A stretch of 64,000 bases of DNA, from positions 806,001 through 870,000 of the forward strand of contig NZ_LT632322.1 in the NCBI RefSeq assembly GCF_900119705.1, in the 5' to 3' direction. This stretch comes from Murdochiella vaginalis. Its GTDB lineage: Bacteria > Bacillota > Clostridia > Tissierellales > Peptoniphilaceae. Made by a program: the position numbers and the translations under genes. Below are positions 1,984-33,754 of the stretch, piece after piece. The stretch's first letter is position 1; each line of letters starts with the position of its first letter. Below the pieces are notes generated by a model. The model searched no databases and was not told the DNA's origin. It saw only the letters and a program-made list of their open reading frames with translations.

Positions 1984-2082
1984 AATTGTTTTCACCCGTT
2001 GTTTTTCCGAATTGTTTTCACCCGTTGTTTTTCCAAATGGTTTTTACACGTTTTTTTTCCAAACTGTTTTTACACGTTCCGG
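1984..2082. repeat. Four tandem copies of a 26-bp repeat overlapping the 3' end of a gene
   Basis: Units begin at 1984, 2010, 2036 and 2062 (the last is truncated). Each has the form AA(T/C)(T/G)GTTTT(C/T)AC(C/A)CGTT followed by a T-rich run ending CC(G/A). Copies 1 and 2 differ at one base; copies 3 and 4 share TTTTTACACGTT. On the minus strand the array covers the last codons and stop of the small acetyltransferase gene and the gap before pepT. Since 26 is not a multiple of three, the repeats change frame, so this looks like slippage-type expansion of a gene end, not a protein repeat. Confidence 0.8.
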
Positions 2083-2331
2083 GTCTGCTGCAAAGATCTT
2101 TTTCACATAGGAACAAACGGGACGCACGTGGATTTCCTGCCGCTTTGCTTCCTCGATGAGTGCATTCACCAGTTTTTTCGCCAATCCACGGCCCCCATAG
2201 GCTTCATCCACAACGGTATGCTCCGCAATCCAATCGCCATTCTCTTCGACATCATAAGACAGATGGCCGATTTCCTTTTCTCCATCGTAAAGAACGAAAC
2301 GATGGTCATTTTCTTTTTTCCGTATTTCCAT
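2044..2331 (-). CDS. Small GNAT-family N-acetyltransferase
   Basis: A 95-residue protein of the short YjdJ-like acetyltransferase family. It carries the compact GNAT core: a strand pair ending in a HTVVDEAYGGRGLAKKLV segment, where the Q/RxxGxG/A-type acetyl-CoA pyrophosphate loop is GGRGLA, followed by a helix and a short strand (HVRPVCSYVKKIF). The ATG at 2331 has AAGGGAAGG upstream and starts the typical MEIRKKEN strand; an in-frame upstream ATG would add 24 residues unlike the family. Substrate is unknown. The last ten codons (RVKTVWKKNV) lie inside a 26-bp tandem repeat, so the C-terminus may vary between strains. Confidence 0.8.
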   Translation of the reverse strand: MEIRKKENDHRFVLYDGEKEIGHLSYDVEENGDWIAEHTVVDEAYGGRGLAKKLVNALIEEAKRQEIHVRPVCSYVKKIFAADPERVKTVWKKNV

Positions 2332-2398: not shown

Positions 2399-3324
2399 TG
2401 CATAGTCTGCCGGCCCTGGTAAACGGTGGATTTCGGCTTTCGTCAGGGTTCGCCGGCTTTGATAAACGCCGAATTTTGGCTTCCGTCAGGGTGCATCGCC
2501 CCTGATAAATGACGGATTTCGGATTTCGTCAGGGTTCGCCGACCCTGATAAACAACGAATTTTGGCTTCCGTCAGGGTGCATCGCCCCTGATAAATGACG
2601 GATTTCGGATTCCGTCAGGGTTCGCCGACCCTGATAAACGATAGATTTCCAATTTCGTCAGGGCCCGTCGCCCCTGATAAACAACGAAATTCGGCCTTCG
2701 TCAGGGTGGACCGCCCTGATAAACAACAGATTTCGGCTTTCGTCAGGGTTCAGCGCCCCTGACAAATGGCGAATTAAGGCTTTCGCCAGGGCCTATAGAC
2801 CCTGTTAAACGCCGAATTTCGGATTTCGTCAGGGCCCACCGCCCCTGTTAAACATCAAATTTTGGCTCCAGACAGGGTTCATCGCCCCTGACAAATGGCG
2901 GATTTCGACTTCCGTCAGGGTTCATCGGCCCTGTTAAACATCAAATTTTCGCTTCCGTCAGGGTCCGTCGACCCTGACAAACAAAGAATTTCGGCTTCCG
3001 TCAGGGTCTGTCGGCCCTGTTAAACATCAAATTTCCGCTTCCGTCAGGGTCCGTCGCCCCTGATAAACGACGGATTTAGGCTTCCGTCAGGGGCCGTCGC
3101 CCCTGATAAACGCCGGATTTCGGGCTCTATCAGGGTCCACCGCCCCTGAAAAACGACAGATTTCGGCTTCCGTCAGGGTGCATCGCCCCTGATAAATGAC
3201 GGATTCCGGCTTCCGTCAGGGTCCGCCGCCCCTGTTAAACATCAAATTTTCGCTCCAGACAGGGCCCACCGCCCCTGATAAACGCCGAATATCAGCTCCA
3301 GCCAGAGCCCGCCGCCTTCGATCC
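2399..3324. repeat. Array of about 21 imperfect 43-bp repeats, each carrying a palindrome
   Basis: From about 2399 to 3324 the sequence is a head-to-tail array with a 43-bp period. Unit starts are visible at 2442, 2485, 2528, 2571, 2614, 2657, 2700 and so on; one unit is 42 bp and both end units are degenerate. Every unit has (G)TCAGGG, a variable 8-nt centre usually containing CG, then CCCTGA(T/C)AAA, then a T-rich spacer (ATTTCGGCTTC). The best hairpin is TCAGGGT (2529-2535), loop TCGCCG, ACCCTGA (2542-2548). Many units also hold an overlapping second palindrome, e.g. TGACGGA (3197-3203) with TCCGTCA (3212-3218), which competes for the same TCA. Units alternate between two subtypes in the left part, giving an 86-bp higher-order repeat. 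No reading frame crosses it: TGATAAA/TGTTAAA stops recur and 43 is not divisible by three. It fills the gap between two divergent genes. Confidence 0.9.
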
Positions 3325-3340
3325 ATTTTGCACAACACCC

Positions 3341-3373
3341 TTGACAGTCATTAACTGTACATATACAATATAA
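3341..3373 (+). promoter_or_regulatory. Promoter and probable autoregulatory operator of the GntR-ABC operon
   Basis: TTGACA (3341-3346), a 17-bp spacer and TACAAT (3364-3369) form a near-consensus sigma-A promoter. The spacer and -10 contain the inverted repeat TGTA-CATA-TACA, placed where a bound GntR/YtrA-type repressor would block polymerase. That it is the operator is inference from position and symmetry. Confidence 0.75.
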
Positions 3374-3398: not shown

Positions 3399-3812
3399 GT
3401 GAATATTCAGATTAAAAATGCAAGCAATGAACCGATTTACTTGCAGATTAAAAAGCAACTTAAAGACGCCATCATCAGCGGAGAGCTGGAGGAAGATGCG
3501 CAGCTTCCTTCCATTCGCTTTTTGGCGAAGGAGCTTCGCGTAAGCGTCATTACGACCAAGCGGGCCTATGATGAGCTGGAGCGGGAAGGGTTTCTGCATT
3601 CCGTTCAGGGTAAGGGCAGCTTTGTCGCGGCGCAGAATCGGGCGTTGATGAAGGAAAACCTGTTACGAAAAATGGAAGCTTGTTTTGCGGAAGCATTGCA
3701 CTATGCAGATCTTGCGGATGTTTCCCGAGAGGAAGTCCATGAATTGTTGCGATTAGTGGAGGAAGACCATGACGGAAGCGATTTGTCTTCAGGACGTGGA
3801 AAAGAAATTTGA
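3399..3812 (+). CDS. GntR-family (YtrA subfamily) transcriptional regulator
   Basis: A 137-residue regulator with the GntR winged helix at about residues 10-75 (IYLQIKKQLKDAI, then LPSIRFLAKELRVS, then the recognition helix VITTKRAYDELEREGF and the wing GKGSFVA). A short helical C-terminal tail replaces a ligand domain, which is the YtrA layout. GTG start, with TAGGAGG 6 bases upstream. Its 3' end overlaps the ABC ATPase gene by 44 bp, so the two are co-transcribed. YtrA-type proteins usually repress their own operon encoding an ABC efflux pump and respond to cell-wall-active compounds; this role is by analogy. Confidence 0.9.
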   Translation: MNIQIKNASNEPIYLQIKKQLKDAIISGELEEDAQLPSIRFLAKELRVSVITTKRAYDELEREGFLHSVQGKGSFVAAQNRALMKENLLRKMEACFAEALHYADLADVSREEVHELLRLVEEDHDGSDLSSGRGKEI

Positions 3813-33690: not shown

Positions 33691-33719
33691 TTGACAAGCA
33701 TATCGATAGGATCTAAAAT
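33691..33719 (+). promoter_or_regulatory. Promoter of the TetR operon
   Basis: TTGACA (33691-33696), 17 bp, TAAAAT (33714-33719). The -10 box overlaps the first operator palindrome. Confidence 0.85.
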
Positions 33720-33754
33720 GACACCGTGTCATAAATGACACGGTGTCATTTTTT
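33715..33754. promoter_or_regulatory. Two tandem palindromic operators forming one large inverted repeat
   Basis: ATGACACCGTGTCAT (33718-33732) and ATGACACGGTGTCAT (33735-33749) are each self-complementary 15-mers, and together they form an 18-bp perfect inverted repeat (33715-33732 with 33735-33752, two-base loop), followed by more T residues. Overlap with the -10 box and start point suggests binding sites of the TetR repressor encoded next; the T-run also allows a terminator role for the upstream gene. Confidence 0.8.

Follow-up and report, generated by a model that had tools for sequence, protein, structure and literature searches.

What kind of element is an array of about 22 palindromic units, repeated every 42–43 bp in the non-coding DNA between two bacterial genes: a row of hairpins, a satellite spread by copying, a block of operators or a platform for protein? 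The question is raised by positions 2399–3324 of the window, the whole stretch of 64,000 nucleotides analysed here, which corresponds to positions 806001–870000 of the 1,671,491-bp chromosome of the anaerobe Murdochiella vaginalis (genome G000).

The array and its neighbours

TRF places the array at 2414–3297 with a period of 43, 20.6 copies and a score of 774; together with a unit count of 19 exact and three decayed copies, this bears out the location and the roughly 21 units given in the first-pass annotation. The exact units (CAGGG-N7/8-CCCTG) span 2487–3277, each lying 25 bp from the next, and no Rfam match above the gathering score was found in the array region. The features of the locus are listed below; the array and its units have no strand.

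2044–2331, minus strand: neighbouring gene for a GNAT-family acetyltransferase (Acetyltransf_CG), start codon at 2331 picked by eye
2399–3324: whole array, ~22 dyad units of 42–43 bp, intergenic and non-coding
2401–2418: decayed terminal unit, 2 arm mismatches
2444–2461: decayed unit, 2 arm mismatches
2487–2504: exact dyad unit, CAGGG-N8-CCCTG
2530–2547: exact dyad unit
2573–2590: exact dyad unit
2616–2633: exact dyad unit
2659–2676: exact dyad unit
2702–2718: exact dyad unit, centre 7 bp
2744–2761: exact dyad unit
2787–2804: exact dyad unit
2830–2847: exact dyad unit
2873–2890: exact dyad unit
2916–2933: exact dyad unit
2959–2976: exact dyad unit
3002–3019: exact dyad unit
3045–3062: exact dyad unit
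3088–3105: exact dyad unit
3131–3148: exact dyad unit
3174–3191: exact dyad unit
3217–3234: exact dyad unit
3260–3277: exact dyad unit
3303–3318: decayed terminal unit, 3 arm mismatches
3341–3369, plus strand: predicted gntR promoter TTGACA-17-TACAAT, directly outside the array
3399–3812, plus strand: gene for a GntR/YtrA-like regulator, then ABC transporter genes, named from sequence and relatives

The GNAT and gntR genes do diverge from the array, as first described, but this setting is incidental, since arrays elsewhere are bordered by tandem or convergent gene pairs. Gene orientation at the M. vaginalis arrays is tandem in about seven cases, convergent in about three and divergent in about one (the window array only), a tally that is approximate because Pfam gives no match for a few of the flanking ORFs. 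The flanking genes themselves are unrelated (GNAT, FeoB, SSB, NUDIX, D-Ala-D-Ala carboxypeptidase and others). A specificity of the arrays for divergent promoters is thereby ruled out by the other loci, and no gene-orientation rule takes its place. No sigma70-type promoter was found inside the window array, and the predicted gntR promoter sits outside it.

The window also holds a shorter tandem repeat downstream of the GNAT gene (1980–2078; 26 bp, 3.8 copies, TTCCAAATTGTTTTCACACGTTGTTT), and M. massiliensis has a related 25-bp repeat at the matching place (L009 3622–3754). A near-perfect palindrome at 33716–33752, AAATGACACCGTGTCAT-AA-ATGACACGGTGTCATTT followed by a T-rich stretch, stands just before a TetR-like ORF and could be an operator or a terminator.

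Distribution and helical phasing of the family

The window array belongs to a set of 11 related arrays in the M. vaginalis genome, comprising 163 exact units; arrays beyond that of the window are found by blastn. The motif CAGGG-N7-20-CCCTG occurs 172 times in this genome, compared with 12 for a reversed control, nearly all within the 11 arrays; solitary units outside them are at about chance level. For two units joined by a 25-bp spacer the counts are 135 in M. vaginalis, 190 and 180 in the congeners G003 and G004, and 52, 92 and 30 in the three species sampled from a second genus; the reversed control gives 0. The array thus stands far above chance, and the search of related genomes for its consensus yields CAGGG arrays in two congeners and throughout the sampled species of the second genus. 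A 10.4-kb match at 100% identity identifies G003 as Murdochiella massiliensis SIT12, and several arrays occupy corresponding places in three species.

Beyond these six species of two genera, which have the CAGGG motif in common, the two-unit pattern is at 0 in the other 124 genomes of the family (Peptoniphilaceae). Order-wide, only six of 249 genomes are positive for the CAGGG motif, and among 399 genomes from across the phylum it was found only in M. vaginalis and as one single chance match. In samples of G006 and G008 (20-kb pieces, 200 kb each), no non-coding tandem array with three or more units scored above the cut-off. A phage or plasmid origin was considered and rejected: viral contigs gave 16 single dimers and no array, and blastn gave no match in phages and plasmids. 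Two further tandem arrays came to light on the way. One, in M. vaginalis (L112 8018–8409; 55 bp, 7 copies, 93% matching), has another dyad half-site, CCACCATCA/TGATGGTGG, and is possibly a second array family; the other, in a further genus of the family (G007, L269 2699–3132; 53 bp, 8 copies), is non-palindromic and apparently non-coding.

The geometry of the family was taken from 42 arrays with 464 units in four genomes, and from a separate unbiased scan of gaps up to 35 bp. Of 374 pairs of adjacent exact units, 359 have a 25-bp spacer; in the unbiased scan the spacer is 25 bp in 458 of 491 cases, the rest being 24 bp (7), 26 bp (20), 35 bp (4, equal to 25 bp plus about one turn) and two stray values between. 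Additional loci of G003, G004, G117 and G118 have the 25-bp spacer in 78 of 81 cases. Centre lengths, also from the unbiased scan, fall into two groups, 6–10 bp (422 cases) and 17–20 bp (41 cases), with none at 11–16 bp; the second class of unit, with its 18–19 bp centre, is one helical turn longer than the short class. A 25-bp spacer combined with centres that differ by one turn results in a period of 42.8 or 53.4 bp, that is, four or five turns: mean unit spacing is 42.82 bp between short units (n=334; 4.00 turns of 10.7 bp) and 53.39 bp between long ones (n=18; 4.99 turns). Where short and long units are neighbours, the distance between unit centres is 47.9 bp, out of phase by half a turn, and only the half-sites keep phase, because the extra turn lies within the centre. 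In the long-centre units the half-site is often extended (AGCCAGGGT), and they may for this reason be a subfamily rather than the outcome of a simple one-turn insertion. The distances are the same in the second genus, where loop and spacer sequences mostly differ and centres are often A/T-rich rather than G/C-rich.

Since the distances come in whole turns, all half-sites of one orientation lie on one side of the helix. The earlier suggestion that 43 bp, close to four turns, sets the palindromes on one DNA face as in a cooperative protein-binding array gains strong support from evidence outside the window, namely the constant spacer, the turn-quantised centres, the two periods and the half-site conservation described below; the binder itself is putative. 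The array may also be a nucleoid or partition site, as was likewise suggested. Intrinsic phased curvature is not supported, the A/T harmonics (half-sites masked) peaking mostly at 1, 3 and 5 and not at the helical harmonic 4, and wrapping or bending is therefore unsupported.

Conservation of half-sites and the competing explanations

Among 37 decayed units in the four genomes, one arm has changed in 35 and both in two, and none is compensated. In the window, the outermost arm pair of the 19 exact units is T-A in only 12, T-T in four, A-A in two and C-T in one. The view that the arms change together does not survive these counts. Covariation is weak, with scores of 0.60 across the loop (0.56 shuffled) and 0.65 across the spacer (0.57 shuffled), and a second, spacer-spanning palindrome, also proposed at first pass, is geometrically able to pair but is not accompanied by strong covariation either. 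Substitutions between the orthologous arrays of G003 and G004 affect 15 of 849 half-site positions (1.8%), compared with 114 of 661 in loops (17%), 249 of 2025 in spacers (12%) and 789 of 24919 in flanking sequence. For half-sites versus loops and spacers the odds ratio is 0.115 (p = 9e-29), array positions being not independent and the choice of units by motif likeness in G003 somewhat favouring the half-sites. With half-site substitutions this rare and decayed units uncompensated, it is the half-sites and their distances that are held, and not the pairing. Homogenisation within arrays could preserve half-sites without selection, though loops and spacers would then have to escape it.

Arrays as a whole turn over fast, at ~71% identity compared with 86% for the adjacent gntR-ABC genes. 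Between G003 and G004, the divergence of all but two of the arrays exceeds that of their flanks several-fold. Two orthologous arrays (L119 5701–6520 and L142 5700–6400, each against L125) are nearly unchanged, with 1 and 0 substitutions and flanks 1–2% different; judged from sequence, such near-identical arrays amid diverged others may reflect recent exchange or conversion.

We consider it fairly probable that the array is a set of helically phased inverted half-sites for a putative sequence-specific, oligomerising protein that binds double-stranded DNA, and the evidence favours a phased protein–DNA array over RNA hairpins, cruciforms or junk. The rigid spacer fixes two half-sites 30 bp apart, centre to centre, while across the unit centre half-sites are ~1.2 turns apart, or ~2.2 turns in the long class; a whole turn can be inserted in the centre and leave the face unchanged. 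A one-sided protein filament or cluster might then form over 0.4–1 kb, with a role in nucleoid organisation, by anchoring or bridging arrays, rather than in the regulation of single genes. The role is probably structural because the arrays are intergenic, scattered and unrelated to the kind of gene beside them.

A neutral or selfish satellite, in which a fortuitous palindromic unit is spread by unequal crossing-over and slippage and the constant period is mere copying, would account for the fast turnover and for the higher-order periods of 86, 128 and 214 bp, which point to block duplication within the arrays. Against it stand half-sites and a 25-bp gap that persist despite diverging loops and spacers, a geometry common to two genera, the lack of units at off-phase lengths and the near absence of solitary units, and we regard it as unlikely. 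Less probable again are transcribed hairpins, that is, RNA stem-loops acting as small RNAs, a protein or RNA sponge, mRNA stabilisers or attenuators, even if the arms are able to pair in RNA and 52-nt arrays of Bacillus coagulans, for which such a role has been proposed, are transcribed (PMC8625621; PMC8161180). The compensatory base-pair changes of an RNA hairpin family are missing from all 37 decayed units, seven of the 19 window units have a mismatched outer pair, quantisation by turns of the DNA helix has no obvious reason in RNA, and both genes point away from a window array in which no promoter was found. The hairpin array offered as one option in the first-pass annotation is thus not supported: half-sites are conserved, pairing is not.

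Local regulation, in which the array would serve the divergent GNAT and gntR-ABC genes as an insulator or as an upstream region with multiple operators, agrees with an array that takes up the intergenic DNA as far as the predicted gntR promoter, and one G002 array is likewise found just upstream of a gntR-ABC operon; ten other arrays adjoin unrelated genes in all orientations, which makes this reading very improbable. We attach the lowest probability to target arrays for recombination or mobile elements. Their model would be the dRS3 repeats of Neisseria (ATTCCC-N8-GGGAAT), which number hundreds per genome, form intergenic NIME arrays of 200–2700 bp with RS spacers of 30–160 bp, and are a phage integrase target (PMC3898611). 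The short inverted repeats, the 8-bp variable centre and the intergenic arrays are shared, and the 6-8-6 layout is strikingly similar, yet the likeness is one of the single unit and not of the array: the half-site differs, and the long, variable dRS3 spacers lack a fixed period where the Murdochiella spacer is rigid. Moreover, no transposase or integrase was seen among the scanned flanking genes, several arrays hold corresponding places in three species, and phages, plasmids and viral contigs yielded no array.

Known repeat systems and a change of motif

Clustered intergenic palindromic repeats are familiar from enterobacteria as REP/BIME, where REPs also occur singly and in alternating orientation, whereas the Murdochiella units lie almost all in exact-period arrays. 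Cooperative binding of SeqA in Escherichia coli needs methylation-dependent GATC pairs a whole number of turns apart on one face; the analogy is one of working only, SeqA sites being GATC pairs and not long palindromic arrays. The repeat-spacer appearance recalls CRISPR, but here the 25-bp 'spacer' is semi-conserved, the palindromic units are only 17–19 bp long, and the region has no match in Rfam.

The closest known kind is that of Subirana and Messeguer, whose bacterial non-coding tandem repeats in Bacillus and Paenibacillus have a constant size (20–21 or 52 nt) and variable sequence; short motifs often occur with their reverse, sequences are species-specific and a genome holds several families, and as to function the authors propose either a protein that polymerises on the DNA or a part played as small RNAs (PMC8161180). 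Such repeats of fixed length and unfixed sequence have been called enigmatic. Both systems consist of non-coding arrays of at least four units, with a fixed unit length that approximates a whole number of helical turns and several sequence families that share short motifs; the 11 M. vaginalis arrays share CAGGG/CCCTG and otherwise differ. Unit length, by contrast, is 42–44 bp in most arrays, with 53–54 bp confined to the long class and to G002, instead of 52 or 20–21 nt, the only non-coding classes given in PMC8161180; a half-site common to two genera, an invariant 25-bp spacer and one-turn jumps of the centre are absent from the text of that paper. Dyad symmetry is common in the 52-nt class too, an inverted repeat being significant (p<0.05, shuffling) in 15 of its 27 published consensus units. 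The array is therefore 'undescribed' in the sense that the literature searched holds neither the 43-bp family nor a paper linking Murdochiella with tandem repeats, but not as a kind; the 43-bp class, the whole-turn quantisation and the half-site switch extend the known one.

The switch is seen in G002, a Murdochiella congener that has no CAGGG arrays but 53-bp dyad arrays with the half-site ACAGTACT. TRF finds such an array, ACAGTACTTT...AAAGTACTGT, upstream of its gntR-ABC operon, and genome-wide the dyad motif has 23 exact units at about nine places (control 0), spaced at 53 bp (24 cases), 54 bp (2) or with a skipped unit (3). It was not found in seven other genomes, M. vaginalis included. 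A second dyad family of G002 is a 54-bp array with arms TTACGGCGGC/GCCGCCGTAA (L221 149–405). The layout, dyads at a whole number of turns, outlasts a complete change of motif.

It is tempting, if rather doubtful at present, to see in Peptoniphilaceae and in the 52-nt repeats of Bacillus one general chromosome-organising system, in which arrays of dyad half-sites would be read by a fast-evolving protein, the target motif being replaced between sister species and the whole-turn geometry kept; if true, this would parallel, in bacteria, the way in which centromere satellites co-evolve with the proteins that bind them. A single family that holds four-turn and five-turn units, built from common half-sites and a common spacer, shows which parts are constant (the spacer and the helical face) and which are free to vary (the length of the centre, in whole turns, and the sequence of loop and spacer), and makes the idea of a protein platform testable with phase-shifted probes. 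The differing half-site of G002 offers a route to the putative binding protein. The gntR promoters contain ACAGT...ACTGT dyads (window 3343–3358; L163 ~1427–1453; ACAGTCATTAACTGT; ACAGTGTATACTGT) that resemble the G002 half-site ACAGTACT, and two arrays of this kind flank the G002 gntR-ABC operon; this likeness, one of sequence, may be a lead towards a GntR-type binder.
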